Below, one piece after another: positions 1-42,607 of a stretch of DNA of 64,000 nucleotides. The stretch's first letter is position 1; each line of letters opens with the position of its first letter. The notes under the pieces were generated by a model that did not search any database, had not been told where the DNA came from, and was given only the letters and a program-made list of their open reading frames with translations. Position numbers and translations under genes: made by a program. Source of the DNA: Peristeroidobacter agariperforans (lineage in GTDB: Bacteria > Pseudomonadota > Gammaproteobacteria > Steroidobacterales > Steroidobacteraceae); contig NZ_RYFW01000002.1 in the NCBI RefSeq assembly GCF_004138335.1, positions 1,593,501-1,657,500 of the forward strand, in the 5' to 3' direction.

Positions 1-3000
1 AAGGTGACGTTCGGACCCGCCGTAGCAGCGGCAGGAGCGTGGTGCTGATGCCCGTGCACGTGCTGTTCAGAGGTTTCCGTATCGTCGGCGATCTCTGCGG
101 GCAAGGCCTGAGCGGTGAGATGCTGATGCTCTGCCGGCTGGTTCGCTGCCACGATTTCTCGCGTTGCCGCTTCATTTGCAACGAGGCGAGTCTCCTGTGT
201 CGGGATGGCGCGCATCGCGCTGCCACCGCCACCGCCGGCGAGCCAATCCTGAGAAATCAGATCCATGTATTCGTGCCAGCGCCAGAAGACAGGATCGACC
301 GGTGCGCCGGCGGTCGTCGCCATGTCGCCGCCGATACGGTTGTGCACGTTGCTGTGCATCGGCAGGTTCACCGCGCAACCCAAAGCATCGCGGTCCGGGA
401 AGTCGAGCAGATCATTCTGGCCGCCCCCGGTTTCGCACGCTGTGCCATTGCTCGGGCGCGCTGTTGCACCACCGGCCAGCGTGAAGTAGCTCGGTCGCGG
501 TGTCAGAACATACGTGCCGAGACGATTGGCGTGGTTCACGTCGGCGCCGGTGGGCAGCGGGGTACCTGGATCCCAGGGGACGACCAGCGGATAACCGAAC
601 TCCTGACGCCAGTTGTTGAAGCGATCCACGAACTCGCGATGGAAGTCGAACAGCGTGCTGCCGTAGTTCGGCACACCTGGCATCCAGTCGCGGTGCCATG
701 CGCTGTGATCGTTGCGTACGCGGCCTCTATTACCAGCACCCGGGTGATTGCTGGTGTAGAAGTCTTCCGCTTGTCTTCCGATGTTCGTCGAGTTGCGTTC
801 GACACTGACGATGATCTGAGCCGAGCAGCTCGCACCGCCGGCCTGAACGTTTACGGACACCGTACGGTCGGCAGGCCCGCTGTTCTGGGGGTGACGCTGG
901 CTCGCCAGCGGCTTCCAGTAGAAGTCGAGCTGCTGCGTCTGGAAGTTCGCCGGCGTCATTGCCGTGGCCGACCACGGCTGCGCCGTGCTTTCCTGATAGT
1001 CGCGAATGATGTCACCCGATACCGTCCACTGATAGGCGATCGGGGTGCCGCCGCCAGTGACATTCGCGGTGTAGACAGCGCGCTGTCCAACGTTCATGAC
1101 CGCAGCACCACCGGTGATCGACACGGTGCAGACGCCGCCCGCGCTAAGCGTTGTAGCGTTCACAGCGGCAGATTGCGCGGACTCATTGGCGGGGACGGCG
1201 TTGTCACGCGCGGAGACTCGGTAGCTGTACGTCGTGCTCGGCGCCCGACCTGAGTCGACGAACGTTGCCGTTGGCGAAGTGCCGACCTGTACGCCATCGC
1301 GGAACACGCGATAGCCGGCAAGCCCAGAGCCGCCGGTATCCGTCGACGCCTGCCACGACAGGGATACGGTGCTCGCGGTGGTGCTCGTGACCTGGAGGTT
1401 TTGAGGCACGCTCGGTGCAATTGTATCCACCGGAGCCGAGGTGGTTGTCCCAGTAACCGGGCCGGCAGGCGCGGACTCGTTCGCCGGCGAGGCGTTGTCG
1501 AACGCCACGACGGTATAGCTGTGCGATGTGTTCTGTGCGCGGCCGGAGTCCGTGAAGTTGGTGCTGCCGGTCGAGCCGATGGGGGCAACTCCGCTGTCGC
1601 GGAAGATGCGATAGCCAGCCAGCCCAGATCCACCCGTATCCGTTGAGGCCGACCAGCCGAGCGAAATCGAGGAGGAAGTGGTGCCAGTGACCGAGAGATT
1701 TTGAGGTGTCGTCGGCGCGGTCACATCGGCCGCGGGGCCGGTCGACACCGTGAGATTCACCGTCGTGCCGGTCGCAACGCTAGCGCCTGCGATCGGAGTC
1801 TGACTGATCACCGACCCGCTGGGCACTGAAGCACTGCTCTGTGAGGTGATGGTTCCGACGACCAGGCCTGCGGCTGTGATATTCGACTGGGCGGTGCTCT
1901 GCGTCTGGCCGACGACATTCGGTGTGAGGACGGTGGCAGCACCCGAACCGCTGACCCGGACGTTGTCGAACTCAGCAGTCGATACGGATCCGTCCAGACG
2001 GCTCGTGACCGCGAGGCCTACGTAGATCGTGGCAGGCATGGTTATCGTCGCCTGGCCGATCTGGGTCCAGTTGGTGCCATCCTGACCCGCGAATACGGTG
2101 AAGGTGTTATTGGCGCGGGTCAGGCGTATCCAGCCGGGCCGGGTGACGCGGGATGCAGCTTCCACGGTCGCCGAAGCGCCGCCGGTGTTTGCTCGAGAAA
2201 TCATGCCGGGGTAGCCGGCGCTGCGAATGTACGAGTAGGCGTGGCGCGAATTCGCGGTCAGCGATTCGCGCATCATGATGCCGGCTTTGGTGAGCGAAGA
2301 GTGCGCGGCAGTCAGGCCCGGCAGGCGAGCGGCGACGTCGACGTTTCCGGAAAGCTGGACGTAGCCGAAGTGCATTTCGTCCGCGGTGCCGCCAATGTCG
2401 GCGCCCGAACCAACGATCGTGATCACACCGTTGGCCTGTATCATCGAACCTGCGGCGCCGACCGCACCGACATCAGTGCTGGTGTTGAGCACCAAAGGCT
2501 GTGGCTCTGCCGGCGGTGTGCCGCCTGAACCCGACGAGACGACGAGATTGATCGATGAGCCTGAAGCGACGGATGCACCGGCCGCGGGGTTCTGACTGAT
2601 GACGGAACCGGCAGGCACCGAAGCACTGCTCTGGGTGGAGACGGTGCCCAACGACAAGCCAGCATTGTTGATAGCGAGTTCTGCCGCAGCCTGCGTCTGG
2701 CCAAGCACGTTCGGCACGGTGACGGAAGCCGAGGGCGTCGTCACGGACAACGAATTGCTCTGTGCGGACTGATTCGGCGGATTCGCCAGGTCAACTGCGC
2801 TCACGCCGTACGAATACGTGGTGTTCGGAGAGACGGTCGTGTCGTTGTATTGGGGCGTGCTGGTCGTACCGATCGGATTCATTCCGCCGTTACGGAATAC
2901 GTGGTACTCGGCCAGACCGGCGCCGCCAGTATCGTTCGACGCATCCCACTCGAGGCCCACGCTGTTGGAAAACACCGCGGTCGTGCGCAGATTCTGCGGA

Positions 3001-3656
3001 ACAGAGGGTGCGGCAGTATCGGGGATGGCCGAGGAGCCGCTCACCGTGATGTTGTCGAACACGGCGGTAGCGAGTGTCCCGTCGACTCGGCTGGTAACCG
3101 CCAGGCCGACGAACACGGAGGTGGGCAGTGAGAGCGTCGTCTGGCCAACCTGCGTCCACGTCGTGCCATCGGCGCCCGTGTACGCGGTGAATGTATTGCC
3201 AGCACGGGTCAGCCGCATCCAGCCCGGCCTTACAGCAGCCGGCCCGGCGACCGTGGTGGAAGCACCGCCCTGCGCACCACGGAAGATCAGCCCTGAGTAG
3301 CCTCCCGAGCGAATGAACGAATAGGCGTGCGGAGCATTGGCGGCCAGCGAGCCGCGAATCATCAGACCTGCCTTGGTCTGGGTCGAATGAGTGCGGGTCA
3401 TCTCGGGCAGGCGGCCGATGATCTCGACGTCGCCCGAGACTTCGATATAGGCAAAGTGCATCTCATCGGCAGTGCCGCCAATGTCGACTCCGGATGCGTT
3501 GATCGTGACCGTGCCGCTGCCGGTGGCCGTGGAGCCCGCGGCGCCAACGGCACCGACGTCGATTCCTGTCCATGACTGAGACCACGAAAGAGCCGGCAGG
3601 AAAAGGGCGAGTAATGCGATCGAAGCGAGAACTCGGATCGCCTTCAAACAATGCAT
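1..3656 (-). CDS. Secreted multidomain protein with tyrosinase-type copper domain (3' end outside window)
   Basis: The gene is open for 1218 codons and runs off the left edge, so the C-terminus is missing. The start at 3656 is followed by a signal peptide (about residues 1-26). Order seen: lectin-like/DUF1349-type domain (29-208), Fn3 (212-305), PASTA (308-375), a second lectin-like domain (384-565), PASTA (573-639), two Fn3 (643-835), an Ig/PKD-like stretch (836-950), a tyrosinase central domain (about 960-1135) and a His-rich tail. CuB-type ligands are H1101, H1105 and H1128 in an HxxxH...DPVFWRWH context, with the 4/23 spacing of tyrosinases. On the CuA side H1006 lies in FDFHREF, but the position nine residues upstream is Asn, so that half is less certain. 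Family knowledge suggests phenol oxidation or an oxygen-binding type-3 copper site; the modules suggest extracellular binding. Substrate unknown. Confidence 0.85.
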   Translation of the reverse strand, partial: MHCLKAIRVLASIALLALFLPALSWSQSWTGIDVGAVGAAGSTATGSGTVTINASGVDIGGTADEMHFAYIEVSGDVEIIGRLPEMTRTHSTQTKAGLMIRGSLAANAPHAYSFIRSGGYSGLIFRGAQGGASTTVAGPAAVRPGWMRLTRAGNTFTAYTGADGTTWTQVGQTTLSLPTSVFVGLAVTSRVDGTLATAVFDNITVSGSSAIPDTAAPSVPQNLRTTAVFSNSVGLEWDASNDTGGAGLAEYHVFRNGGMNPIGTTSTPQYNDTTVSPNTTYSYGVSAVDLANPPNQSAQSNSLSVTTPSASVTVPNVLGQTQAAAELAINNAGLSLGTVSTQSSASVPAGSVISQNPAAGASVASGSSINLVVSSGSGGTPPAEPQPLVLNTSTDVGAVGAAGSMIQANGVITIVGSGADIGGTADEMHFGYVQLSGNVDVAARLPGLTAAHSSLTKAGIMMRESLTANSRHAYSYIRSAGYPGMISRANTGGASATVEAASRVTRPGWIRLTRANNTFTVFAGQDGTNWTQIGQATITMPATIYVGLAVTSRLDGSVSTAEFDNVRVSGSGAATVLTPNVVGQTQSTAQSNITAAGLVVGTITSQSSASVPSGSVISQTPIAGASVATGTTVNLTVSTGPAADVTAPTTPQNLSVTGTTSSSISLGWSASTDTGGSGLAGYRIFRDSGVAPIGSTGSTNFTDSGRAQNTSHSYTVVAFDNASPANESAPAGPVTGTTTSAPVDTIAPSVPQNLQVTSTTASTVSLSWQASTDTGGSGLAGYRVFRDGVQVGTSPTATFVDSGRAPSTTYSYRVSARDNAVPANESAQSAAVNATTLSAGGVCTVSITGGAAVMNVGQRAVYTANVTGGGTPIAYQWTVSGDIIRDYQESTAQPWSATAMTPANFQTQQLDFYWKPLASQRHPQNSGPADRTVSVNVQAGGASCSAQIIVSVERNSTNIGRQAEDFYTSNHPGAGNRGRVRNDHSAWHRDWMPGVPNYGSTLFDFHREFVDRFNNWRQEFGYPLVVPWDPGTPLPTGADVNHANRLGTYVLTPRPSYFTLAGGATARPSNGTACETGGGQNDLLDFPDRDALGCAVNLPMHSNVHNRIGGDMATTAGAPVDPVFWRWHEYMDLISQDWLAGGGGGSAMRAIPTQETRLVANEAATREIVAANQPAEHQHLTAQALPAEIADDTETSEQHVHGHQHHAPAAATAGPNVT

Positions 3657-4026: not shown

Positions 4027-4127
4027 GATTTGAGTGTCGACTCGCCTGACAACCGCGGCGCGCGGGGGCGATGCGGCGAAGTGTGCGTGAGCTATAACGT
4101 ACTGATAAACAAAGATAAAATCCCAGT

Positions 4128-4143
4128 TGGTCCACCCCTTGCA
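4128..4143 (+). promoter_or_regulatory. Sigma-54 (-24/-12) promoter of the PEP-CTERM gene
   Basis: TGGTCCACCCCTTGCA has the GG and GC dinucleotides separated by exactly ten bases and matches the TGG-N8-TTGC frame of sigma-54 promoters. It lies 72 bases before the PEP-CTERM start. Known from the family: PEP-CTERM genes in many proteobacteria are driven by sigma-54 with the PrsK/PrsR system. The activator for this site is not identified in the window. Confidence 0.6.
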
Positions 4144-4215
4144 ATACTTGGAACCAGACGGCATGCGAGGCGGGCATGCAACAAACGAATTCCACCTCCG
4201 CCGGGAGCAAAAAAA

Positions 4216-4782
4216 ATGTTGGTTAAATCTTTGGGTAAGAAGCTTGCGGTTCTTACTGCACTCATGATGGGTGCTGTGGGTACTGCACAGGCTGTCCCGC
4301 AGTACTGGAGCGATTGGCAGATTGATTTCGACAAGGTGAGCACGGGCAACAGCTACACCTACACGCACGACATCACCGATGGTCCTTTCGGTTACCGTCC
4401 AGGTGTCGACACACTGTCTTACGCGGCGCTGACCATCGTGCTGGGCGACGACGCTCTGGGTGGCGATCTGCCGAAGTGGCTGCTTGGCGACGAAAAGGAA
4501 ACGGCGGGTTTTCGTTTCGACGGCGCATGGCAGACAGTGAAGAATCCCTCGGTCGACCTGCTCAGCGTGTTCGACTTCGTGGTGACCAGCCTGCTCAGCG
4601 CGGATGGCATCCTGGAAGTGAAGATCACCGCGAACAAGGGTGACTTCCTGTTCGGCATTTCGCGCCTCGAGGCTTGGGGCGATCGCGCTACGGCTGAAGT
4701 GCCGGAGCCCGCGACGCTCGGCCTGCTGGGGCTCAGCCTGCTCGGCATGGGCTTTGCTGCTCGTCGCCGTACGAACGGCTAA
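4216..4782 (+). CDS. PEP-CTERM sorting-domain protein
   Basis: A secreted protein of 188 residues. An N-terminal signal peptide (about 1-27, cleavage near AQA-VP) precedes a soluble domain of about 130 residues with no recognised enzymatic motif. The C-terminus has the sorting signal: VPEPATLGL, a hydrophobic stretch, then ARRRTNG. In known systems such proteins are cut by exosortase (EpsH/XrtA) and moved to the envelope or exopolysaccharide matrix. No exosortase gene is in the window. The start is the ATG after GGGAG (4203-4207). The gene is monocistronic, with a sigma-54-type promoter upstream and a strong terminator downstream. It is sandwiched between a lectin/tyrosinase protein and nucleotide-sugar genes, which fits a role in matrix or surface biology, but the specific function is unknown. 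Confidence 0.85.
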   Translation: MLVKSLGKKLAVLTALMMGAVGTAQAVPQYWSDWQIDFDKVSTGNSYTYTHDITDGPFGYRPGVDTLSYAALTIVLGDDALGGDLPKWLLGDEKETAGFRFDGAWQTVKNPSVDLLSVFDFVVTSLLSADGILEVKITANKGDFLFGISRLEAWGDRATAEVPEPATLGLLGLSLLGMGFAARRRTNG

Positions 4783-14563: not shown

Positions 14564-14618
14564 CCCGCCAGCGCGCCGCGCCTACCGTCTCGTCCATCTT
14601 TTGCGATGGATGGAACGT

Positions 14619-15752
14619 ATGACGCAACGAATTCGGAATCGCGCCTTGACTCTGACGGCGATGCTCGCCGCCAGCCCGTTGTTCGCAGCGGATCATCTCG
14701 ACACGCCCAGCGTAATCGCAGACCCACGGGCCGACATCGGCGATCTGTATGCATGGACCTCTTACGACGGCCGTCAGCTCAACCTGGCGATGACGATCGT
14801 CGGGCACACGTTCTCCGACCAGCTGCAGTACGTGTTTCACATCGATAGCGGCAAACGGTTTGGCGAAACGACTGCCACGACCGATATCGTGTGTCGGATT
14901 GCCAGCGCCGGCAACGTCCTTTGCAAGGTGGGCAATACCGCTGTCGCGCGTGTGTTTGCCGGGTTGCGGGACGATCCGTTTTACAACAACGTGAAGGGCA
15001 CTCGAGAGGCATATGCCGTGGCCGCGGACGCGATGATGGGCAGCGCAAAGAGCGATGCGGCCGGCTGTCCCATGTTCAGCGAGACGACGTCCAAATTGAT
15101 CCTGGAAACGTGGCGGCACACCGGCGGTGGGCCGGCGAAGAATTTTCTGGCCGGTTGGACGCCGGCGTCGCTGGTGGTCTCGGTGGATCTGAATGTCATC
15201 AATCGCGGCGGAACGATGCTCGGCGTTTGGGCGACGACGGTGCTAGCAAGCAAACAGATCGACCGTATGGGCCGTCCGCTCACCGGCAATGCGCTCCTGG
15301 GTTCGTTCGCCGAGGAGGAGACGAGCGATCGACTCAAGGAGCGTTACAACAGCGCGACTCCTGCCACGGGCGCGGAATTCATTCCCGAAATGGAAAGAAC
15401 GTTGGGCATCTACGATGGCTTCGATGGGAAGTGCGGCAATCAGCTGCTCGCCGACCCCAAAGCGGCCTCGCCCGCGCGATATCGTGCGTTGGCCACGGTG
15501 CTCGCGGACGATCGGCTGTGGATCAACAGTGAATCCAGCATCTGCGGTGAGTTCTTCTCGGTCGAGTTCACCGCGCTGGGCGGTGACGATGCGAAAGTGA
15601 TCTATTGCGGAGGCCGCACACCGAACGACGACGCCATCGACGTGTATCGCTCGGTGTTGTCGATGGGGCAGGCGCAGGGCATCGATGACGGCGTCGATCG
15701 CGACGACCGCGAACACTCGATCAGTGACTTTCCTTTCCTGGCGGCGCCATGA
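14619..15752 (+). CDS. Exported DUF4331-family protein
   Basis: A 377-residue exported protein. The signal peptide (about 1-23, ending LFA-ADH) is followed directly by the DUF4331 hallmark ADHLDTP...DIGDLYAW. The rest is beta-rich with Cys residues that could form disulfides. The family has no agreed function. The ATG at 14619 is preferred over 14601 (TTG) and 14610: it gives a compact signal peptide and puts the upstream box at nearly the same distance as in the other boxed gene. It overlaps the DUF4198 gene by an ATGA, so the three genes form one translationally coupled unit ending with the AraC regulator. A role in periplasmic metal or redox handling is possible but unproven. Confidence 0.8.
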   Translation: MTQRIRNRALTLTAMLAASPLFAADHLDTPSVIADPRADIGDLYAWTSYDGRQLNLAMTIVGHTFSDQLQYVFHIDSGKRFGETTATTDIVCRIASAGNVLCKVGNTAVARVFAGLRDDPFYNNVKGTREAYAVAADAMMGSAKSDAAGCPMFSETTSKLILETWRHTGGGPAKNFLAGWTPASLVVSVDLNVINRGGTMLGVWATTVLASKQIDRMGRPLTGNALLGSFAEEETSDRLKERYNSATPATGAEFIPEMERTLGIYDGFDGKCGNQLLADPKAASPARYRALATVLADDRLWINSESSICGEFFSVEFTALGGDDAKVIYCGGRTPNDDAIDVYRSVLSMGQAQGIDDGVDRDDREHSISDFPFLAAP

Positions 15753-16573
15753 GCGGTCCTGGCATTGTCACAGCTACGCTGCTGGCCGGGCTCGTCCTCG
15801 CACCCGCGGTGCACGCGCATGACTTCTGGATCCAGCCGCAAGCTTACTGGTCGGAAGTCAACGCCTCGATTCCAATCACGCTACAAGTCGGGCACGGCAT
15901 GCAGCGGCAACGATCGCAGATTCGATCGAGTCGCATTGCTCGGATCGTCGTGTTTGCTCCAGATGGGACGGTGCGTGATCTGCGTGAAAACTTGCATCTG
16001 CGTGGCGCAAGCGACGACGGTCATTTGCACTTCGAGACTTCAGGCACCCATGTCGTCGTGCTGGAAACAGATAATCGCGGTCGAAGTGCGTTGCCTGCGG
16101 AGCGGTTCAATAAGTACGTACAGGAGGAGGGTTTGACGGCAGCGCTCGATTACCGCCAGCGCACGAGCAAGATGGCAATGGATGCCGCCGAGAGCTATCG
16201 CCGTGTGACGAAGTCGATCGTTCAGGTGGGCAAGCTAGGTACGCCCTGCGGATCTCACATTACGTCACCGTTGGGACTGCCGCTGGAAATCGTCCTCGAG
16301 CAGAATCCCTACGCCGAGGCCCGCAGCGACCTGCCAGTCCGTGTGTTCTTCGAGGGGCAGCCGTTGGCGGGAGCCCTTGTGAAACTGACGCGGCTCGAAC
16401 ATGACGAGGTGCCGGTCGAGGCGCGTCGGACGGATCCGTCTGGCCGCGCCAGTTTTCGGCTGACTCCCACCGGTGCCTGGTTGCTAAATGTGGTCTGGAC
16501 GAAGCCTGTGACCGGACCGTCCGATGTAGACTTCGACACGACCTTCTCCAGTCTCACCTTCGGCTTTCCATGA
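15749..16573 (+). CDS. Periplasmic DUF4198-family protein
   Basis: A 274-residue exported protein with a signal peptide ending VHA-HDFW. The exposed N-terminal His-Asp-Phe-Trp after cleavage is characteristic of the DUF4198 group. This group is often found next to metal (nickel or cobalt) uptake or TonB systems and is thought to bind metal through the new N-terminal His; that is family knowledge, not shown here. The C-terminal half has an Ig-like domain. Start and stop overlap both neighbours (ATGA in each case), so it is cotranscribed with the DUF4331 and AraC genes. Confidence 0.8.
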   Translation: MSGPGIVTATLLAGLVLAPAVHAHDFWIQPQAYWSEVNASIPITLQVGHGMQRQRSQIRSSRIARIVVFAPDGTVRDLRENLHLRGASDDGHLHFETSGTHVVVLETDNRGRSALPAERFNKYVQEEGLTAALDYRQRTSKMAMDAAESYRRVTKSIVQVGKLGTPCGSHITSPLGLPLEIVLEQNPYAEARSDLPVRVFFEGQPLAGALVKLTRLEHDEVPVEARRTDPSGRASFRLTPTGAWLLNVVWTKPVTGPSDVDFDTTFSSLTFGFP

Positions 16574-17400
16574 CGGAGCTCGCCATACAGGACTTGCTGG
16601 ACACGCAGACCGTCGCGATTCGCGACATCGTTTGCGACGGCAAGTGCCGTCACAAGAGTGCGGAGGAGTGTCCCAGCTCGACCTATCTGGTGTTCCCGTA
16701 TCGCGGCGTGTACCTGCGGCACTTAGGCAGCGAGGATGCTGTCGCCGAAGCGAACCAGGTGCTGTTTTTCAACCAGGCGGAAGGCTATCGCATCAGCCAT
16801 CCGGTGCAGGGCGGCGATGCCTGTCTTTCGATCTCTGTGCGAGAGGAGCTGTTGCGAGAGCTGGCGCCGAAAGAACATCTGCATGACAACACTGCAGTGA
16901 TGTTTCGTAAGCAGCGCTGGCAAATAGATCCGCGAGCGCAGGTACTGGTCGCACTGCTGCGTCATAGCTTGCTGAACAATTCGATCGAGATGCTGGAAGC
17001 GGAAACATTGACGTTGACGCTGATTCGACGCGCCCTCGGCGAACGAGCTTCTCGAGCCACGCGTACCACCTATGGCCGGCAGAAGCTCGTCGATCGCGCG
17101 AAGCTGGTGCTTTCTACGGAGCTGTCGCGTCGTTGGACACTCGCCGAGATCGCGGCGGAGGTGGGTGTGTCGCCTGTCTATCTGACCCAGGCATTCGCAC
17201 AAGTCGAAGGCGTGCCGTTGTATCGATATCAATTGCGCCTGCGCCTGGCGCGCGCCTTGGATCTGCTCGGCAGTTACGACGACCTGTCAGCGCTGGGCTT
17301 GGAGCTCGGCTTCTCCAGTCACAGTCATTTCACTGCAGCGTTTCGGCAAGCGTATGGGCGGACCCCGGCGCAATTTCAACGGTCCGCCAATTTGCGCTGA
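16570..17400 (+). CDS. AraC-family transcriptional regulator
   Basis: A 276-residue regulator with a cupin-like N-terminal sensor half and the AraC double helix-turn-helix at about 180-275 (WTLAEIAAEVGVSPVYLTQAF, then LGLELGFSSHSHFTAAFRQ with the family ending YGRTPAQF). The N-terminus has a Cys cluster (C23, C27 and C35, in CDGKC and EEC), and the mid-part has GGDACLS. Such Cys residues could sense metal or redox state; this is inference. It is the last gene of the coupled DUF4331-DUF4198 unit and probably controls it and the downstream Cys-rich gene through the shared 20-bp box. The box near the Cys-rich gene begins 13 bases after this stop codon. Confidence 0.9.
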   Translation: MTELAIQDLLDTQTVAIRDIVCDGKCRHKSAEECPSSTYLVFPYRGVYLRHLGSEDAVAEANQVLFFNQAEGYRISHPVQGGDACLSISVREELLRELAPKEHLHDNTAVMFRKQRWQIDPRAQVLVALLRHSLLNNSIEMLEAETLTLTLIRRALGERASRATRTTYGRQKLVDRAKLVLSTELSRRWTLAEIAAEVGVSPVYLTQAFAQVEGVPLYRYQLRLRLARALDLLGSYDDLSALGLELGFSSHSHFTAAFRQAYGRTPAQFQRSANLR

Positions 17401-19706: not shown

Positions 19707-19899
19707 TCCCGGTCTGCCACATCAGACATAACCCTCGCTGCCCCCTCGGTGCTTTGCCTTGCTTTCACATAAAACCGGGAGCTGTTTCACACCTCCTTAA
19801 TCGTCAACGCCTTACGATGCCTCGCAACGGTAGTGGTTCACACTAACAATGCGGGGACGAGACGACGCGCGCCAGCGTCGTACAACGTCGGAAGGACAA

Positions 19900-22800
19900 A
19901 TGCATCGACTGCTCGAACAGCAAGTCAGGGACGCTACGTCGGATGGAGAGCTGGATCTCGGTAAGCTGCTTGCCGCGATCGGTGCTGCCTATAGCAAGAC
20001 CGATGAGGAACGCCGGGGCATCGTGCGTTCCATGCAGCTCATGTCCGATGAGGCCACCGCGCTGACTCGCGAGCTGCGGGAGAGCACCGCGAGCCAATTG
20101 CAGGCAGTGCTCGATCACGTGAAGGACGTGATCATGACCGTCGACGCTGCCGGCCACATCGCTTCCATCAACGCCACCGGCCAGCGCGTGTTCGGTCACG
20201 CCGAATCCGACGCCATCGGCCGGCCACTCAGTTTCCTGCTGCCGCAAGTCACCGCAAAGCAATCCGTCGCTGCCGAGTTGGAACAACTCGCCGCGCGGCT
20301 CGACGATACACAAGTCGACCTTGCGCCCCACGAGACGCTCGGCCAGCGCAGCGACGGCACACAGTTCTCCGCCGAGATCGCGGTGAGCAAGACGAAAATG
20401 AACCGTCGCGAAGTGTTCGTCGTCTGTTTGCGCGATACCAGCGATCGCAAGATGGCCGAAGCGGCGCTGCGTGACAGCGAGGCTCGTTATCGCACGCTCG
20501 TCGAGCACGCACCCGAAATCATCGTCGTCGTCGATCTAGATCAGAACCGACTGGTCGATGTGAACGAAAACGCGGTGCGCTTCTTCAAGATGGATCGCGA
20601 GGCGCTGCTCAAGAGCAGCCCCGATACGATATGCCCGCCGCACCAACCGGACGGTGCGCTGTCGTCGCACGCCAATCGGGCGCAGTTCGATCGCACGTTG
20701 GCGGGCGAGGCGCCGGTGCTCGAATGGATGTTCCGCGACAGCTTCGGCAACGACATTCCTTGTGAAGTGCGATGGGTGCGGCTGCAATCGCACGGGCAGC
20801 GCCTGGTTCGCGGCAGCATCACCGATATCACCGAACGCAAGCGCGCTGAATTGCTCGCTGCCGGCGAGCGTCGCGTGTTCGAGCGTCTGGCCGCTAACGT
20901 CGATTTGCGTATCACGCTGCAAGCCATCACCGACGTCGTCGAGCGCGTTGCGCCGGATTGCGTGTGTGCGATTCGCATGCTCGACGATACCGGCAAGCAT
21001 CTGAATCTTTGCTCGGGGCCGCGCTTGCCGGCGGTGTACGCGCAGGCGATGGAAGGCATCGCGATTGCGGCTCGCAACGGCTCATGCGCGGCTGCCGTTT
21101 ATCTGCAACGACAAGTTATCGTCGCGGACATCGCCCGCGATGCGCTGTGGGAGAACACTCGCGACTCTGTGCTCGCCGCCGGGTTGCGCAGCTGCTGGTC
21201 CACGCTGATTCATTCATCCGACGGCCGCATCCTCGGCACTCTGGCGCTGTACTTCCGCACGCCAAAGAGCCCGTTGCGCCGTGATTTCGAATTGATGTCG
21301 CGCATGACGCAGCTGGCCGGCATCGCCATCGAGCGACGCTTTGCTGAAAACGCGCTGCGTGACAGCGAGGCGCGCTATCGACGCTTGTTCGACAACGTCA
21401 TGGAAGGCGTGTACAGCTCGACCAGCGATGGCCGTTTCGTGTCGGTGAACCCGGCCTTGGCCCGCATGATCGGTTATTCCTCGCCGGGCGAGCTGCTCGC
21501 GCTGCCGCCTGCAAGCATGTATCGCGATCCTGCCGAGCGTGCAGCCATCATCGCTGCCATTCAACGCGACGGTGAAGTTCGCAACGCCGAGTTCCAGTTG
21601 CAGCGCCTGGACGGCACGGTGCTGACCGTGATCGAAAGCGCTCGAGCCGTCCGTGATAAGAACGGGCAGCTGATCGGCTACGAAGGCACGATCTCCGACA
21701 TCAGCGAGCGCAAGCGGGCTGAGACCGCGGTGTTCGAGGAGAAGGAAAAGGCGCAGGTCACGCTGCAGTCGATCGGTGACGGTGTCATCACGACCGATGC
21801 CAACGGCTGCATCGAGACGCTGAATCCCGTCGCCGAAAATCTCACGGGCTGTGAAGCGACCGAGGCGAAAGGCAAGAAGCTGCAGGAAGTCTTCAACATC
21901 CTGAACGAAGCAACTCGCGAGCCGTTGGAAGATCCCGTCACTCGCGCGATTCGCGAAGGGCAGGTCATCGCGGTCGCGGACCACACGGTGCTCGTGAACC
22001 GGCGGGGCCAGGAAATCGCGATCCAGGACTCTGCCGCGCCGATCCGGGATCGCAGCGGCAAGATCATCGGCGCGGTGATGGTGTTCCACGATGTGAGCAA
22101 GGAACGTCGGCTGCGTCGCGCGCTGGCGTACCAGGCGAGCCACGATGCCCTGACCGGTTTGATCAATCGTCGTGAGTTCGAGAACCGCCTCAACGAAGCA
22201 TTGCTGACGGCGCGCTCGGACGAGGGCACGACGCACGCGTTGATGTACCTCGACCTCGATCAATTCAAGCTGGTGAACGATACGTGCGGCCACCAGGCCG
22301 GCGATCGCCTGCTCAAGCAGATCACCGGACTGCTGCAAACGCGGATTCGCACCAGCGACACGATTGCGCGCTTGGGCGGCGATGAGTTCGGCGTGCTGCT
22401 GCAGGACTGCACCGCCGATCGAGCGGCGAAGATCGCTGACAACCTGCGACAGGCGATTCGTGAGTATCGCTTTGAATGGCAGGACGGCGCGATGAACGTC
22501 GGCGTCAGCATCGGCATCGTCGAAATCAACAGTGCCAGCGAGAGCATCGCAAGCGTCATGGCCGCGGCCGACGTGGCGTGCTACGCGGCCAAGGACTCGG
22601 GGCGCAATCGCGTCCACATGTATCAGTATGGCTCGGCGCCGGAGCGGCATCGCGAGATGCAGTGGGTGTCGCGCCTGACGCGCGCCTGCGAAGAGAACCG
22701 GCTCGAGCTTTACTACCAGCCCATCGTGCCGATCGGCGCGACTCGCGACACGCGAGGTCATTACGAGCTGCTGCTGCGCATGCGCGGCGAGCACGGCGAA

Positions 22801-23457
22801 CTGGTGCAGCCGGCGGAGTTCATCCCGGCGGCGGAACGATACAACGTGATGCCGATGATCGATCGTTGGGTGGTGAGCCAGGCGCTCGGGGCGCTTGCGC
22901 ATTACCGCGCCGACGGCGATCCGCGTCACGGCTATACGTTATCCATCAACCTGTCGGGCACATCGCTGAACGACGATCGTTTCCTGGAGTTCTTGATCAA
23001 CGAGTTGCAGGCCTACGATCTCAGTCCCGGGGCGGTGTGCTTCGAGATCACCGAGACCGCGGCGATTTCCAATCTCGCCAACGTCGTGCACTTCATGCGC
23101 GAGTTCCGCGCGCGTGGCTGCTTGTTCTCGCTGGACGACTTCGGCAGCGGCTTGTCCTCGTTCATGTATTTGAAGAACCTGCCGGTGGACTTCCTGAAGA
23201 TCGACGGCTCGTTCATCCAGAACGTCACCACCGATCATGTCGATCGCAGCATGGTGGAGGCGATCACCCAGATCGGCCGGGCCATGGGCTTGAAAACAGT
23301 CGCCGAACGCGTCGAGAGCGCCGAAGTGCTCAAGTGTCTCGCAGAGATCGGCGTCGAGTATGCGCAGGGTATTTATATCGCCATGCCGGAATCGGTGGAG
23401 TCGCTGAGCCGGATCACGCGGACGCATCCGCAATTGAGACTGGTGCACTCGGCCTGA
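19900..23457 (+). CDS. PAS/GAF-containing diguanylate cyclase/phosphodiesterase (GGDEF-EAL)
   Basis: A soluble signalling enzyme of 1185 residues. Order: helical N-terminus, PAS (about 70-190), PAS (195-315), GAF (330-490), PAS (495-610), PAS (625-745), GGDEF (750-915), EAL (930-1175). The GGDEF motif (LGGDEFGVLL, about 825) is intact, so c-di-GMP synthesis is possible. In the EAL domain the signature reads Y-E-L-L-L-R (E956): the catalytic Glu is kept but EAL has become ELL. DDFGSG (about 1079), KIDGSFI and AERVES, which hold further metal and catalytic residues, are present, so hydrolysis is also plausible. No membrane segment is seen. The ATG at 19900 follows GGAAGGA (19890-19896); an in-frame ATG at 19849 lacks such a site. 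It ends seven bases from the convergent CapK-like gene. Confidence 0.93.
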   Translation: MHRLLEQQVRDATSDGELDLGKLLAAIGAAYSKTDEERRGIVRSMQLMSDEATALTRELRESTASQLQAVLDHVKDVIMTVDAAGHIASINATGQRVFGHAESDAIGRPLSFLLPQVTAKQSVAAELEQLAARLDDTQVDLAPHETLGQRSDGTQFSAEIAVSKTKMNRREVFVVCLRDTSDRKMAEAALRDSEARYRTLVEHAPEIIVVVDLDQNRLVDVNENAVRFFKMDREALLKSSPDTICPPHQPDGALSSHANRAQFDRTLAGEAPVLEWMFRDSFGNDIPCEVRWVRLQSHGQRLVRGSITDITERKRAELLAAGERRVFERLAANVDLRITLQAITDVVERVAPDCVCAIRMLDDTGKHLNLCSGPRLPAVYAQAMEGIAIAARNGSCAAAVYLQRQVIVADIARDALWENTRDSVLAAGLRSCWSTLIHSSDGRILGTLALYFRTPKSPLRRDFELMSRMTQLAGIAIERRFAENALRDSEARYRRLFDNVMEGVYSSTSDGRFVSVNPALARMIGYSSPGELLALPPASMYRDPAERAAIIAAIQRDGEVRNAEFQLQRLDGTVLTVIESARAVRDKNGQLIGYEGTISDISERKRAETAVFEEKEKAQVTLQSIGDGVITTDANGCIETLNPVAENLTGCEATEAKGKKLQEVFNILNEATREPLEDPVTRAIREGQVIAVADHTVLVNRRGQEIAIQDSAAPIRDRSGKIIGAVMVFHDVSKERRLRRALAYQASHDALTGLINRREFENRLNEALLTARSDEGTTHALMYLDLDQFKLVNDTCGHQAGDRLLKQITGLLQTRIRTSDTIARLGGDEFGVLLQDCTADRAAKIADNLRQAIREYRFEWQDGAMNVGVSIGIVEINSASESIASVMAAADVACYAAKDSGRNRVHMYQYGSAPERHREMQWVSRLTRACEENRLELYYQPIVPIGATRDTRGHYELLLRMRGEHGELVQPAEFIPAAERYNVMPMIDRWVVSQALGALAHYRADGDPRHGYTLSINLSGTSLNDDRFLEFLINELQAYDLSPGAVCFEITETAAISNLANVVHFMREFRARGCLFSLDDFGSGLSSFMYLKNLPVDFLKIDGSFIQNVTTDHVDRSMVEAITQIGRAMGLKTVAERVESAEVLKCLAEIGVEYAQGIYIAMPESVESLSRITRTHPQLRLVHSA

Positions 23458-31291: not shown

Positions 31292-32773
31292 TTAAGCCGT
31301 CGTCCGGCAGTAGCTGTTGATGAAGTCCTGATGCTTCGGCAGCTTGGCGACGGCCTGGGCGACGCCGGCCCGGAGGCTGCTCAATACCCGCGCCAGCTCC
31401 TGTTCCTGCATGCCGCGCGGTAAAGGGTGATAGTGCTTGGGCACGATGCCCTGACCCAGCAGCACCTGGATCCAGGAGTCCACGCGAAATAGCTCGCCGG
31501 CGTCCTGATAGGCGTGCGCGCCCTCCTTGAACATCTCGACGCGATGGGCGAGCGCTTCGGGGATCTCCATGTTCCTGCAATAGCGCCAGAACGCCGAGTC
31601 GTCCCGGTCGGTGGTCTTGTAGTGCAGGATGATGAAGTCGCGGATCTTCTCGAGCTCGACGCGCGACTCCTCGTTGAATTGATCGACCAGCGGCTGGCTG
31701 ACGCCGTCGAAAGGAAACATCTGCATCAAGCGCGTCGCCGCCGTAATGATGACGTGGATGCTGGTGGACTCGAGCGGCTCGACGAAGCCGCTGGACAGTC
31801 CGATCGCGACGACATTCTTGTTCCAGGTCTTGCGGCGGCGGCCCGGCTGGAACTTCAGAGTGAACGGCGGTCGCACCGGTGCGCCGCTGACTGCCTGCAT
31901 CAGCTTTTGTTTGGCGTCATCATCGGAGATATAGCGGCTGCAATACACGAAGCCGTTGCCCATGCGGTGCTGCAACGGAATCATCCAGCGCCAGCCAGCT
32001 TCGTGCGCGAACGCGCAGGTATATGGATTCGGCGGACCGGTGATCTCCGTCTGCACCGCTGCCGCACTGTCGCACGGCAGCCAGTGCGACCAATCCTCGA
32101 AGCCCGTGTGCAATGTTTGTTCGATCAGCAGGGCGCGGAAGCCGGTGCAGTCGATGAACAGATCGCCCGGGACGACGCGATCCGAGGCCAGCGTGAGCGA
32201 TTCGACGAAGCCGGTCGTCGCGTGCTGCTGGACAGATTTGATCTTGCCCTCGACGCGCTTGACGCCGCGGTTCTCGGCGAAGCGCCGCAGGAACCTCGCG
32301 TAAGCGGTTGCATCGATGTGATATGCGTAGTTGATGTCGGATTGCGGCGAGGTGCCGAAACGGCCTTGCTTGGCCGCGAGCCACTCGACGCAATACTCGC
32401 CGAGCTCCGAGTTCATGCCGGAGCGCAGGCCGTGCAGCCAGAAGTGGTGAAACTCGGCGAGCCAGGTGGGCTTGCCGTGCCGGCCGAACGGATGGATGTA
32501 ACGATCGCCAATCTGACCCCAGTTCTCGAACCAGATGCCGAGCTTGAAGGTCGCCGACACGCTGCGCATGAATTCCTGCTCGTCGATGCCGAGCAGCTGA
32601 TGAAAGACGCGGATCGGCGGCACCGTCGATTCGCCGACGCCGATGGTGCCGATGTCGTCGGATTCGACCAGGGTGATGTCGAGGATCTGACCGAGCTGGT
32701 GCGACAGCGCAGCGGCAGTGACCCAGCCGGCGGTGCCGCCGCCAGCGATGACCACTCGTTTGATTGGCGTCAT
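31292..32773 (-). CDS. Flavin-dependent tryptophan-halogenase-family protein
   Basis: A 493-residue FAD-dependent halogenase-fold enzyme. The N-terminal VVIAGGGTAGWVTA binds FAD. K77 aligns with the lysine that carries the hypohalous acid intermediate in PrnA. The halogenase signature WxWxIP is present as GWRWMIP (about 262), and GFVEPLES (about 328) carries the partner Glu region. A functional halogenase is therefore possible, probably using FADH2 from a separate reductase. It is the last gene of the TonB receptor-SapC-cupin operon, a recurrent arrangement in Caulobacterales, Xanthomonadales and related bacteria whose substrates are mostly unknown; it is not an antibiotic cluster by context. 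Confidence 0.9.
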   Translation of the reverse strand: MTPIKRVVIAGGGTAGWVTAAALSHQLGQILDITLVESDDIGTIGVGESTVPPIRVFHQLLGIDEQEFMRSVSATFKLGIWFENWGQIGDRYIHPFGRHGKPTWLAEFHHFWLHGLRSGMNSELGEYCVEWLAAKQGRFGTSPQSDINYAYHIDATAYARFLRRFAENRGVKRVEGKIKSVQQHATTGFVESLTLASDRVVPGDLFIDCTGFRALLIEQTLHTGFEDWSHWLPCDSAAAVQTEITGPPNPYTCAFAHEAGWRWMIPLQHRMGNGFVYCSRYISDDDAKQKLMQAVSGAPVRPPFTLKFQPGRRRKTWNKNVVAIGLSSGFVEPLESTSIHVIITAATRLMQMFPFDGVSQPLVDQFNEESRVELEKIRDFIILHYKTTDRDDSAFWRYCRNMEIPEALAHRVEMFKEGAHAYQDAGELFRVDSWIQVLLGQGIVPKHYHPLPRGMQEQELARVLSSLRAGVAQAVAKLPKHQDFINSYCRTTA

Positions 32774-32783
32774 GGTCGCTCCA

Positions 32784-33806
32784 TCAGCGATTCAAATTGT
32801 TGAGCAGCATCGCCCGAATGCGACGCGCGCTGCTGTCATCCATCGGCCCGAGCGCGCCACGGGCCTGCTCGGGCAAGTGCTCGCCAGCTTGCTCGGCCGG
32901 GCCGAAGACGTAGTAGTCGAAAATACTCTTCCATGCGCGCTTCTCGCGCTCCGGCCGATCGCGCAACGCCCAGATGGCGTGATAGAGCGCATTCATCGGC
33001 GACGGCATGAACTTCGGCGACGTGCTCCACCAATAGTTGATCAGCGTATTGAACGGGCTCAGCGCTTCGACGTGATGCCACCACAGGCTCGGAATGAACA
33101 CCGCATCGCCGGGCTCGACTTCCACGGACTGCCCGGCTTCCAATGCTTCACGGAAGCGCGGGAAGCGCTCGAAGTCGGGGTTCGAGAAATCCACCAGGCT
33201 GACGGCCTGGCCGCCGGGCGTCGGCTCGAGCGGGCCGGGATACAAGTTGAAGATCTGCTCGGGAGGAAACATCGTGAAGCGCCGGCGCCCGACGGCGCAG
33301 CACGCGAGATTGTTGGGCGCATCGTAGTGGCAGGATGCGATCGTGCGGTTGCCGATCCAGATGCTCGCCAGCGGCTCGTAGCCTTGCGCGGCGAACGGTA
33401 CATCGTTGTCGCGCCGGAAGCCGGGGAGGCAGGCGTCGATGGTCGTCGAGGCGATGTAGTTGGTCGGCGGGCGCTCGTCCTCGAGATGTTTCTCGATGTC
33501 CATCAGCACGTGATCGAGCGGCGCACGCTGGCTGAGGAAATTCAGTTGAGTGTAGTCGTCGTTGTAGAACAACCGGCCCTTGATCTGCGGATCGCCGCGT
33601 GAGGCGCCGACCGTCTTGCCGTTGTAGAAGGAGCGCAGATAACTCATCGCCTCGTGATGCGAGCGCAGGCCGGCTTGTACCAGCGGCCACTGCGCGACGA
33701 GGCCTTTCAGCACGACCGGCTCGTCGCCGGCCAACAGTTCTTGCAAGGGAATCGTATCGGCCGTGTAGCCGTGCAGCTCGCGAGTGCGCTTCAGTTCGCC
33801 GGTCAT
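32784..33806 (-). CDS. Cupin-like (JmjC-type) Fe(II)/2-oxoglutarate enzyme
   Basis: A 340-residue JmjC/cupin_8 protein. N-terminal segment EPVVLKGLVAQWP is typical of the family. The iron triad is H and D in CHYDAPNN plus a distal His in SLWWHHVEAL. Members hydroxylate protein or small-molecule targets; the target here is unknown. The ATG at 33806 overlaps the SapC stop as ATGA, and the stop lies ten bases before the halogenase start, so the genes are cotranscribed. This enzyme is a fixed partner of halogenase/SapC clusters. Confidence 0.85.
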   Translation of the reverse strand: MTGELKRTRELHGYTADTIPLQELLAGDEPVVLKGLVAQWPLVQAGLRSHHEAMSYLRSFYNGKTVGASRGDPQIKGRLFYNDDYTQLNFLSQRAPLDHVLMDIEKHLEDERPPTNYIASTTIDACLPGFRRDNDVPFAAQGYEPLASIWIGNRTIASCHYDAPNNLACCAVGRRRFTMFPPEQIFNLYPGPLEPTPGGQAVSLVDFSNPDFERFPRFREALEAGQSVEVEPGDAVFIPSLWWHHVEALSPFNTLINYWWSTSPKFMPSPMNALYHAIWALRDRPEREKRAWKSIFDYYVFGPAEQAGEHLPEQARGALGPMDDSSARRIRAMLLNNLNR

Positions 33807-34588
33807 GATGCCGCGGCCACCCCCGCCTGCTGCCGGCGCCGATGTTTCATGTCGATGAGCTTCTTCATGTTGTTGAGCGAGGCGATCACCAGGAATGCGC
33901 CCTGCAGGAAGCCGGCGCTGTTCAATTGAAACAAGGCGTCGCCGCTCAAGCCACGCAGCTTTTCTTCGCTGATCGTGTACAGCCCACGCAGGTTGAACTG
34001 CTCTTCGGCATTGAACTTGATCTCGACATTCACCGGTTCGATCAGCTGGTGCGCCGAGAAGGCTTCGAACATGGCCTTGCTGACGGCGAGCCCTTGATGG
34101 ATGCCGTGCAGAACGGCCGTGATGCGCTCGAGATAGCGCGTGTTGCCGCCTTGAGGCAGGAACACCGGCTCGCCCTCGGTGGTGCTGATGCGGGGACTGT
34201 CCAGATCGACGTGGATCACGGGCTCCCTGCGCATCTCGCCGTCCACCTCCTGATTCTGGAAGCCGATCAGAAACGGCCCGCGAGCGATGATCCCGGGAAT
34301 ATAGGCGGCGTTCCAACCGTGCTGGTCGAGGAAAAGATTTTCGTCCTGCTGAAAGCCGAGCAGGGCGATCGATTGAAACTCGCCGCTCTGCGGATCCTTG
34401 CGAAAGAATATCGGGTACTCCCGCTGCACATCCCCGTATTCGGTGGGGAAGGTGAGTACCGTTCCGAGATTGTCGCCGAATTCGGCGCCGTGGCGAGCGA
34501 TCACCCGCAAATCCTTGTGGGCGACGTTATTGAGCATCACATGCCTGGCCAAGACTTCCCCCAGATCAACTTCAGGTCGCCCGGGCAT
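33803..34588 (-). CDS. sapC: SapC-family protein
   Basis: A 261-residue SapC-like protein (PF07277), not the ABC permease of the same name. Family features: NVAHKDLRV near the start, EYPIFFRKD, LLGFQQDENLFLD and AYIPGIIARGPF. The cellular role is undefined; the name comes from S-layer work in Campylobacter. ATG at 34588 is chosen; an alternative ATG at 34537 begins closer to the conserved LNNVAHK. The gene overlaps the cupin gene by ATGA and follows the TonB receptor after a hairpin-rich gap. Confidence 0.85.
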   Translation of the reverse strand: MPGRPEVDLGEVLARHVMLNNVAHKDLRVIARHGAEFGDNLGTVLTFPTEYGDVQREYPIFFRKDPQSGEFQSIALLGFQQDENLFLDQHGWNAAYIPGIIARGPFLIGFQNQEVDGEMRREPVIHVDLDSPRISTTEGEPVFLPQGGNTRYLERITAVLHGIHQGLAVSKAMFEAFSAHQLIEPVNVEIKFNAEEQFNLRGLYTISEEKLRGLSGDALFQLNSAGFLQGAFLVIASLNNMKKLIDMKHRRRQQAGVAAAS

Positions 34589-34642
34589 TATGCTGCGCCA
34601 TCCTGCTCCGCATAAGCCCTGGGTGCACATCCTTGTCCACCC

Positions 34643-34734
34643 GCTCGACGGAGCGAAGCTCCGCTTCGCTGTAAGACACCGTCGAGCCCTGCCACGACCG
34701 AAGGGGCGGGCCGGATACCCTCGAGTACCCGGCC
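34643..34734. terminator. Nested hairpins between the TonB receptor and sapC
   Basis: An outer stem GCTCGACGG/CCGTCGAGC (34643-34651 with 34679-34687) encloses an inner stem AGCGAAGC/GCTTCGCT (34652-34659 with 34663-34670). A second hairpin, GGCCGG/CCGGCC with a further TAC/GTA pair, lies at 34709-34734. Neither has a T run. They lie just after the receptor stop on the minus strand and could attenuate or protect the transcript, allowing more receptor than SapC. Confidence 0.45.
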
Positions 34735-34746
34735 GCCTGATCGACT

Positions 34747-37700: not shown

Positions 37701-37896
37701 CGATCGCGTCGCGCTTCATGTCCATCGAGGTTTCCAGGCTGGCTCTCATGCCAGTCACGACCACTTCTTCCAGCTCGGTCTGGCCGGGCGTAGAGGCGCT
37801 TGCTGCGGCGGCCTCCTGGGCGCTCGCGCCGTGCAAAGGCGCAACCGAAGCCAGCGCCGCGGCGATGGCTATCGCGAGCCTGTTATTTCTCATCAT
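34747..37896 (-). CDS. TonB-dependent receptor of the halogenase/SapC cluster
   Basis: A 1049-residue outer-membrane receptor. Signal peptide (about 1-27), then TonB box ELEEVVVTGMRAS, a plug domain with IGKFPDSNLSESLQRITGISID and TLNGRTMP, and a long beta-barrel ending in aromatic YALGARYKF. Plug motifs and length are typical of the large carbohydrate-type receptors (TIGR01782-like), not small siderophore receptors. An AGGGGGA site precedes two tandem ATGs at 37896 and 37893. It heads the operon receptor, SapC, cupin, halogenase. The imported substrate is unknown, possibly a complex glycan or aromatic glycoconjugate. The upstream gap has two operator-like repeats. Confidence 0.93.
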   Translation of the reverse strand: MMRNNRLAIAIAAALASVAPLHGASAQEAAAASASTPGQTELEEVVVTGMRASLETSMDMKRDAIGVVDAISAEDIGKFPDSNLSESLQRITGISIDRRNGEGALVTARGFGAQYNMVTLNGRTMPAADAFAGGNSGDGGVAGQSRAFNFANLASESISAIEVYKTGRADQATGGIGATLNVRTARPFDSDEPVMNVGVKAVTDTTNRVGDDITPEVSGIFSFANDDKTWGVGLSASYQKRDSGSSSSTVNDWNIRNWTPGNQTTKFSPDAVVVNAPAVGALYAIPNDIRYHFSDRERERTNAQLTVQFAPTDTLTLTADYTYAETDLTEDRGDQTLWMNANRYSYVEFDTGHAVATPMVLQEDEGTAKDFGFEQQHRQQKNELNSIGFNAEWHVTDNFSLALDVHDSKAESLPNDPVTGGGETLFSFAARVPSTCDTVNTSLCTNRFQQTFRFNDGLPLAMRTLFRDPTTGIPGSGGDPNYAFTINDLGSQYLRINYQEQTSDITQARIDGNLKFENDSRVQFGVETRAMESRQRASGAQMTLGDWGVASPGELPANLLQPFSLVGEFNDFSTAGVPRSGWKGNANALAQWAVDTYGVWRDPTNTTGVLGYNPAFDQNHTVSEDTVSAYVQYGMNFDLFSRNANLLVGVRYEKTDLEAVSNQIVPLGLIWQDNNDFSELQGSTMSQVKEENDYDYLLPNLDFDIEVIDNVKARFSYSKTIARAQYNQLRAAVDVGGSQGSSLNGFNPTANAANPQLEPLESDNIDLSMEWYFGDASYLSAGFFHKKVANFIGNEVVTEGLFGITDQTSGPRAQAAVAALQARSLSTDDTNLFVMMAMMEHPDGFTDKNGVRWDGGAAAFNGTEAQHLAWATQYDLLPNADDPEYQFDVTRPTNNKDAKIHGWELGGQHFFGQSGFGIQANYTIVKGDVSFNDAGAQSLNQFALLGLSDSANLILMYENYGFQVRLAYNWRDEFLQNTNRGNDHNPEYVEEYYQVDLSVGYEVNENLSLSLEGLNLTEEDIRWHGRSINQPWYVEDQGARYALGARYKF

Positions 37897-37973
37897 CTCG
37901 AGTCCCCCTGATTAACGAACGTCGAACCCAGTCACTATTGAAAGTGGCTCAAACAAGTGTGGGCGAGGGAGCG

Positions 37974-37987
37974 GATACCGCTACCAT
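37974..37987 (+). promoter_or_regulatory. LacI-type operator-like element, copy 1
   Basis: GATACCGCTACCAT lies 78 bases upstream of the receptor start. It matches copy 2 at 13 of 14 positions. The GGTA/TACC-like half-sites round a central CG resemble operators of LacI-family regulators of TonB-receptor loci (for example the xyl-box type of Xanthomonas). No LacI gene is in the window. Confidence 0.45.
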
Positions 37988-42604: not shown

Positions 42605-42607
42605 ATC

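Follow-up and report, generated by a model that had tools for sequence, protein, structure and literature searches.

Locus and domain architecture

The window analyzed here is a stretch of 64,000 nucleotides from the soil bacterium Peristeroidobacter agariperforans (G000:C10:1593501-1657500, where G000 is the source genome), at the left end of which lies a minus-strand gene for a multidomain type-3 copper protein. Its reading frame is uninterrupted from the ATG at window position 3656 and remains open past the left window edge; the part inside the window (3656→3, listed as 1..3656) encodes residues 1-1218 of 1422. The complete gene occupies G000:C10:1592888-1597156, with its end 613 bases past the window edge (stop at L002:12888) and the final 204 residues encoded to the left of the window, at G000:C10:1592888-1593500. 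In our judgment, the unusual part of this protein is its CuA site and a conserved core composed of an immunoglobulin (Ig)-like domain and a copper domain, rather than the PASTA modules alone.

The original prediction, made from the letters of the window, allowed for a stop or frameshift that would separate the modules. The frame contains neither, and its integrity is supported by an orthologue in another Steroidobacter that has no inner stop and is 73% identical across residues 1-1422; the modular protein is therefore no assembly fusion. An open frame of 416 codons on the opposite strand (window 3-1253, plus strand) overlaps the gene at its copper-domain end and is presumably a GC-rich shadow frame.

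The complete 1422-residue protein was searched against Pfam with gathering cut-offs applied, and the families above cut-off were PASTA (106.9 bits, two stretches), fn3 (58.5 bits, three stretches), DUF1349 (51.2 bits, two stretches), Tyrosinase (36.5 bits, one stretch), and TSP3_bac (32.1 bits, two stretches). The predicted combination of two PASTA, Fn3, lectin-like, and type-3 copper modules in one protein is thus borne out by this search of the full gene, the lectin-like part being DUF1349. No kinase, transpeptidase, or glycosidase domain was found in the Pfam scan of the full protein, and no C-terminal PEP-CTERM motif was matched in Pfam or NCBIfam, the C-terminus being formed by the TSP3 repeats.

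From the N-terminus, and on the minus strand throughout, a Sec-type signal-like segment, recognized by eye in the translation (residues 1 to about 27; window 3576..3656), is followed by a concanavalin-like DUF1349 module (about 29-210; 3027..3572), an Fn3 module with a match in the PDB to residues 211-314 (about 211-308; 2733..3026), the first PASTA domain (312-375; 2532..2723), a second DUF1349 module, supported by Pfam and by its likeness to the first (about 389-572; 1941..2492), the second PASTA domain, likewise similar to its predecessor (1740..1925), and two further Fn3 modules, of which one has limits set by eye (about 644-742; 1431..1727) and the other contains the best fn3 stretch, 750-827 (about 744-836; 1149..1427). 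The PASTA domains score 69.2 and 61.3 bits individually against a cut-off of 23.2. Identity between the two DUF1349 modules (109 of 181 aligned residues) and between the two PASTA domains (41 of 66) indicates that the scaffold arose partly by internal duplication. The PDB matches of the Fn3 modules include titin and are generic; matches in PHROGs also fall on the Fn3 regions, and a phage origin based on them was not taken as supported.

The catalytic portion follows this scaffold. It begins with a separate Ig-like beta-sandwich (about 842-952; 801..1133), and the type-3 copper domain itself covers only about 953-1140 (237..800), the latter supported by the Pfam Tyrosinase match in its CuB part and by hhalign to bacterial tyrosinases. 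Contrary to the original prediction, the copper domain is not C-terminal, since it is followed by a His-rich linker (1176-1206; 39..131), a Big-like part (Big_12 at 17.1 bits, below the cut-off of 27), and the two TSP3 repeats. The Ig-like domain has no Pfam match in this protein; it is supported by an alignment of three cores and by strands in two structure models, and is retained alongside the copper domain in all three proteins of the family. The linker is defined by its His count, with 7 His in residues 1173-1206, a number reached in 1 of 500 shuffles; the orthologue has 8 (0 of 500).

Candidate copper ligands

The Tyrosinase match (cut-off 22.6 bits) spans only profile positions 172-212 of 214, i.e., the CuB end, and the profile behaves similarly in the two relatives, with 37.0 bits over positions 152-212 in the orthologue (L014) and 43.7 bits over 152-208 in a more distant protein (L053). 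In contrast, an ordinary tyrosinase encoded in the orthologue's genome scores 145.8 bits over positions 2-213. The predicted tyrosinase identity therefore holds for CuB, where the match exceeds the cut-off, while the CuA region seems rearranged and is not that of a standard tyrosinase.

The CuB motif, H1101-x3-H1105-x22-H1128 with the sequence FWRWH (window 273..356, minus strand), is supported by Pfam, the three-core alignment, and the PDB search. It conforms to the CuB rule of Aguilera 2013, with Phe1124 four residues before and Asp1132 four residues after the third His, and the same holds for L014 and L053. The residue preceding the sixth ligand is Trp (WRWH) in all three proteins, whereas among 16 distinct ordinary bacterial tyrosinase frames, including two from plasmids and the second one of the orthologue's genome, Trp occupies this position in none and His (HH) in all. 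The residue following the first CuB His is Ser in the present protein and L014 and Gly in L053, none having Asn; Gly is also found there in L005, which looks like an ordinary tyrosinase.

The candidate CuA motif, H984-x3-H988-x17-H1006 (639..707, minus strand), is conserved in three of three sequences and agrees in spacing with the beta-type CuA pattern H(3)H(n)H. The alpha-type pattern H(n)H(8)H is absent, as the residue nine before H1006 is Asn in the present protein and L014 and Gly in L053. In all three proteins, the 17 residues separating H988 from H1006 are devoid of His, and the next His upstream are H988 and H984. For type-3 copper proteins in general, Aguilera 2013 gives a Phe four residues ahead of the third CuA His; this place holds Leu in the present protein and L014 (with Phe at three and one before) and Phe in L053. 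All nine His of the 298-residue Ig and copper core (922, 971, 984, 988, 1006, 1042, 1101, 1105, and 1128) are kept in both relatives.

Published ligand sets provide the frame for comparison. The ligands of Streptomyces tyrosinase are His38, 54, and 63 and His190, 194, and 216, i.e., spacings of x15/x8 and x3/x21 (PMC6312201); those of the mosquito prophenoloxidase AgPPO8 are H223, 227, and 252 and H379, 383, and 419, i.e., x3/x24 and x3/x35 (PMC4700666); and site A of the fungal enzyme AsqI consists of His176, 180, and 208, i.e., x3/x27 (PMC6053404). According to the Aguilera 2013 survey (PMC3658974), the second CuA His is placed differently in the beta-subclass, which lacks a signal peptide and is cytosolic, and only the alpha-subclass was found in the bacteria examined. 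Judged by sequence, the candidate layout 984/988/1006 with 1101/1105/1128 resembles prophenoloxidase at CuA and, in its CuB spacing, tyrosinase. A signal-like hydrophobic N-terminus is seen by eye in the present protein and L053, unlike the beta-subclass rule.

Overall similarity points toward tyrosinases. In hhalign, the domain aligned with the 16 bacterial tyrosinases at a probability of 98.06 and a score of 89.6 over 131 columns, placing H1006 on the third CuA His of their WHR motif and continuing through CuB; in 30 controls with shuffled columns of the whole domain, the maxima were a probability of 8.47 and a score of 25.7. In a PDB search with the core profile, tyrosinases reached 29.7 bits at most and the arthropod hemocyanins and prophenoloxidases 22.9 bits (3ixv hemocyanin 22.9, 3wky prophenoloxidase 20.9); a molluscan hemocyanin of several units came to 32.3 bits as the sum of weak pieces, and the best stretches of both the tyrosinase and the arthropod chains lie in CuB. 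With the L053 protein as query, the groups were close to one another, at 21.5 bits for tyrosinase, 19.6 for a chain labeled 'TK receptor' with an RWH motif, and 18.9 for 3wky. The CuA region alone produced two PDB matches at E up to 10, the best at 0.4, and neither is a type-3 copper protein. Hemocyanin_M (PF00372) is not among the Pfam matches of the protein; it was also unmatched in the source genome and 249 genomes of the phylum, a result that is uninformative, as the controls did not match either. Since overall similarity favors tyrosinases, the prophenoloxidase-like CuA layout may represent convergence. With similarity leaning to the alpha-subclass and a site layout that looks beta, the sequences make no choice between convergence and common descent.

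Relatives and distribution

A search of the genus with the whole protein gave matches in 9 of 14 genomes (the source included), most of those listed falling on Fn3 or DUF1349 stretches. The match is end to end in two of them only, the source genome and G012, that of Steroidobacter sp. isolate TY_HY_2_bin.4, which carries the orthologue L014 on G012:C276; the unusual architecture claimed in the original prediction is thus real, and occurs in 2 of the 14. The Pfam families above cut-off in the orthologue are PASTA (two stretches), fn3 (three), DUF1349 (two), and Tyrosinase, whereas its TSP3 falls below (20.0 vs 25).

The third family member, L053, was found in the gammaproteobacterium G728 (E 9.9e-135) by a class-wide search of 369 genomes with an Ig and copper profile. 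In this protein of 512 residues, a signal-like segment directly precedes the Ig-like domain (a weak Ig_3 match, below cut-off), followed by the copper domain, a Big-like part (22.8 bits, cut-off 27), and TSP3, with an HSHTH sequence near the C-terminus. It is devoid of the DUF1349/Fn3/PASTA scaffold, and the enzyme can therefore be equated with the Ig-to-TSP3 core. In the three-core alignment, the Ig and copper core of the present protein is 76% identical to that of the orthologue and 60% identical to that of L053.

The family was screened in 60 relatives, 398 and 329 genomes of the phylum (overlapping draws), 296 of the order, 369 of the class, and two of the order of G728. Matches over the whole query occurred only in G000, G012, and G728; all others were partial, with E of 2.5e-7 or worse, and those with the CuB pattern are ordinary tyrosinases. 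The screens sampled genomes and began with a permissive filter, and so do not prove rarity. A pattern search of genome contigs returned 76 stretches and 1 distinct locus. Among viral contigs, 51 and 22 stretches carried the pattern and no relative was among them, and no relative was found in phages. Plasmids gave no relative at 1e-5; at E up to 10 there were 44 records, and the two inspected of the 20 listed are ordinary tyrosinases. One plasmid, from Methylobacter (L022:2357-4168), encodes an ordinary tyrosinase followed by about seven near-identical tandem repeats of ~50 residues (VSHSSGVVEVFWVRPDG...). An ordinary tyrosinase also lies in a 1028-codon frame of the orthologue's genome (L006/L020, on G012:C176).

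The two PASTA domains described here are the only PASTA matches in the source genome, and the protein is its only Tyrosinase match (E up to 0.001). The statement that PASTA domains are known mainly from Gram-positives is only loosely right; of 14 control genomes, 9 matched the profile, 8 of them above cut-off, and the 9 include one Bacteroides and two archaea. Paired PASTA domains occur in two other genomes of the genus, at G003:C4:761253-761633 (a 2209-codon frame) and G009:C227:9162-9542 (2247 codons), and a third PASTA in the orthologue's genome lies outside the orthologue, on G012:C15.

Genomic context

Directly to the left of the gene lies a polysaccharide gene group (L002:3661-12794; Pfam and NCBIfam), comprising a protein with weak similarity to ATP-grasp (below cut-off), one resembling flippases, an acetyltransferase, a GT2 protein, an amidotransferase, and a 719-residue Acetyltransf_6 protein that also has a FemAB-like match below cut-off. 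The amidotransferase scores 566.6 bits with an XrtA/PEP-CTERM model, below the cut-off of 816.9. To the right are a PEP-CTERM protein (4030..4782, plus strand; the listed frame, its true start uncertain; Pfam PEP-CTERM, NCBIfam PEP_CTERM), a protein of the sugar-nucleotide dehydratase/epimerase type, and a two-component pair. The PEP-CTERM protein sits between the copper-protein gene and the dehydratase-type gene, and its counterpart adjoins the orthologue, where L068 contains a 53.6% identical stretch of 196 columns. The locus in G012 follows the same order, with flippase, GT2, amidotransferase, Acetyltransf_6 protein, copper gene, PEP-CTERM region, and response regulator.

Proposed function and alternatives

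The observed sequence, domains, conservation, and neighborhood suggest a role, with export, tethering, copper content, ligands, activity, and substrate predicted from sequence and family membership. We propose, with a probability of roughly 55%, that the protein belongs to the tyrosinase superfamily and acts as a secreted type-3 dicopper oxidase, anchored to the surface or matrix, that serves an exopolysaccharide coat. A Sec-like signal would export the protein, and the DUF1349, Fn3, and PASTA modules, judging from their families, could tether the enzyme to extracellular polysaccharide or to wall or matrix material, whereas the TSP3 repeats would bind calcium. The catalytic unit would comprise the Ig-like domain, copper domain, Big-like part, and TSP3, a unit that apparently also exists scaffold-free. 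Its CuB site would be formed by H1101/H1105/H1128 and its CuA site most likely by H984/H988/H1006, with H984 and H988 one helical turn apart in the manner of prophenoloxidase. The His-rich linker may assist copper loading; this is a guess by analogy with Streptomyces tyrosinase, for which a separate caddie protein loads copper (PMC6312201). The substrates would be phenols or catechols, among which tyrosyl groups or phenolics of the matrix are candidates, and their oxidation would yield quinones that could crosslink or pigment the exopolysaccharide/PEP-CTERM layer. The families above cut-off, the full-length orthologue and its similar neighborhood, the scaffold-free relative, the nine kept His, the hhalign result, and the published ligand spacings count in favor of this proposal. 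The surface- or matrix-bound phenol oxidase of the original prediction accordingly stays plausible and fits the conserved place among polysaccharide genes; the idea sits less easily with a domain that is non-standard and a relative that has no PASTA/Fn3/DUF1349 scaffold.

Streptomyces tyrosinase has Asn191 after its first CuB His, and changing the counterpart of this residue to Gly lowered activity (PMC6312201). As the present protein has neither an Asn following its first CuB His nor a His preceding its third, the candidate enzyme is more likely to be catechol oxidase-like than an efficient tyrosine hydroxylase. A further-reaching formulation would be that the three proteins represent an undescribed bacterial type-3 family with a hybrid center, combining a prophenoloxidase-like CuA and WRWH with a tyrosinase-spaced CuB, that is either a relative of the beta-subclass or a site evolved twice, and that in Steroidobacter has been joined to modules of the wall- and sugar-binding type to crosslink an exopolysaccharide coat. 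This formulation is tentative, and on balance doubtful.

Several observations weigh against these proposals. Only three family sequences were found, and within them H922, H971, and H1042 are as conserved as the candidate ligands. The CuA half alone aligned with tyrosinases at a probability of only 20.9 and a score of 26.4, through the H1006 helix (maximum over 30 shuffles: score 18.3, probability 1.7). The H-x8-HR sequence is present in 12 of the 16 ordinary tyrosinases and missing in four, so that its absence is not unique. The His cluster of L053 is not significant, as 483 of 500 shuffles attain its count of three. With respect to the neighborhood, the dehydratase and the small acetyltransferase are unmatched in G012, where the GT2 gene is inverted; the amidotransferase occurs in 6 of the 14 genus genomes (E up to 1e-150), only two of which have the oxidase; and the G728 relative has ABC-transport genes on one side and a PfkB kinase on the other, rather than polysaccharide genes. 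The ABC-transport genes look molybdate-type, to judge from SBP_bac_11 and TOBE/HTH_1.

Modeling adds little to the assignment of ligands. Structure prediction, as suggested earlier, was run twice with AlphaFold2, from a single sequence and from two sequences, with mean predicted local distance difference test (pLDDT) values of 44.0 and 40.3, again a point against the proposal, and with the copper domain below 50; therefore, no geometry stands behind the proposed ligand set. Both models show a beta sandwich at about 842-952, their best-scoring part, and helices at 957-970, 984-990, 1002-1019, and 1128-1139, while a helix over H1101/H1105 appears in the second model only. The agreement of two low-confidence runs of one network lends weak support.

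An account that overlaps with the proposed matrix oxidase, and shares its function, holds that the domain is an alpha-type tyrosinase in which an insertion has lengthened the loop ahead of the third CuA His, from 8 residues after the second to 17, such that H988 is the displaced ordinary second His and the H-x3-H spacing is convergent or superficial. The overall similarity to tyrosinases (hhalign probability of 98; 29.7 bits in the PDB search vs 22.9 for arthropod and 32.3 for molluscan chains) and the lack of a Hemocyanin_M match argue in its favor. Loop length also varies within the tyrosinase set, as the second-to-third CuA His spacing, read by eye, amounts to 9 in L005 and to 11 in L006/L020. 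However, a loop of 17 lies outside the range of 8 to 11 seen in the 14 tyrosinases read (all of the 16 but L011 and L066), and the Trp before the third CuB His is found in none of the 16, all of which have HH. We regard this account as having about an even chance of being right.

Two other explanations depart from the proposed function itself. The scaffold might bind plant or fungal polysaccharide and the oxidase act on lignin-like phenolics to feed the cell, making the protein a biomass-directed one unrelated to the cell's own coat. Secreted carbohydrate-active proteins commonly carry Fn3 and DUF1349 modules, which counts for this explanation, as does the resemblance of the Fn3 region to that of the exoglucanase CbhB (180.9 bits, far below the cut-off of 1950); the conserved neighbors look like polysaccharide synthesis and export, not degradation, and we consider it unlikely. 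Still more improbable, in our estimation, is that a type-3-like fold performs another job here, either as a single-metal (e.g., zinc) non-oxidative enzyme resembling the fungal cyclopenase AsqI or as an oxygen or copper binder that does not oxidize phenols. As AsqI demonstrates, loss of one site and the use of zinc are compatible with the fold (PMC6053404), and residues tied to tyrosine hydroxylation are missing from the present protein. Nevertheless, AsqI has lost the second site (PMC6053404), whereas both candidate sites keep all their His in three of three proteins here, and the linker looks metal-handling in two of the three.

Comparison with known systems

The alpha-subclass tyrosinases (PF00264; Streptomyces and Bacillus megaterium) share with the present protein the CuB sequence HxxxH...DPxFW..H...D, with spacings of x3 and x22, and the aligned helix of the third CuA His; they differ from it in having a His at the usual second CuA place, HH rather than WH, and Asn after the first CuB His. 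Arthropod prophenoloxidases and hemocyanins (PF00372) resemble it in the CuA H-x3-H and in WH at CuB, whereas its CuA spacing of x17 and CuB spacing of x22 contrast with the x24 and x35 of AgPPO8, and its N-terminus is signal-like. PASTA kinases and penicillin-binding proteins (Stk1/PknB, SpoVD) are similar in that PASTA is matched above cut-off and their models match partially, below cut-off; however, the PASTA domains here stand between DUF1349 and Fn3 in a secreted-looking Gram-negative protein. The exoglucanase CbhB, a secreted modular carbohydrate-active protein, is comparable in the style of its Fn3 run and differs in that the catalytic domain of the present protein is a type-3 copper domain. 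The scaffold-free relative, L053, has the signal-like, Ig-like, copper, Big-like, and TSP3 parts in the same order and differs in lacking both scaffold and His-rich linker.

In searches of titles and abstract beginnings of the open-access literature, no description was encountered of an extracellular protein combining tyrosinase, PASTA, and Fn3, nor, among the matches listed, of a PASTA-bearing secreted Gram-negative peptidoglycan-binding protein of such a kind. Among the matches listed, the open-access literature likewise yielded no Steroidobacter tyrosinase on topic, no bacterial hemocyanin-like tyrosinase, and none with the copper family described here; for beta-subclass type-3 copper proteins in bacteria it led to the 2013 survey alone, and for tyrosinase together with exosortase only to work on stieleriacines, judging by the beginning of the abstract.

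Should the ligand set be true, bacteria would hold a dicopper center combining the two main type-3 layouts, which would bear on the origin of hemocyanins and prophenoloxidases and on the role of the second CuA His. Should the tethering be true, the protein would be a Gram-negative candidate for the enzymatic crosslinking of an exopolysaccharide/PEP-CTERM matrix, and the scaffold-free relative would offer an easy form for assay. A bare Pfam 'Tyrosinase' label can also mask a different CuA site.

Other features of the window

Farther to the right on the plus strand, genes for DUF4331, DUF4198, and an AraC-type regulator stand in a row at 14601-17400, and a protein of 1202 residues with GAF, several PAS, GGDEF, and EAL domains is encoded at 19849-23457. 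The region 31292-46369 contains a tryptophan halogenase (31292-32773), two TonB-dependent receptors (34747-37896 and 43430-46369), and an amidohydrolase (39274-40812).

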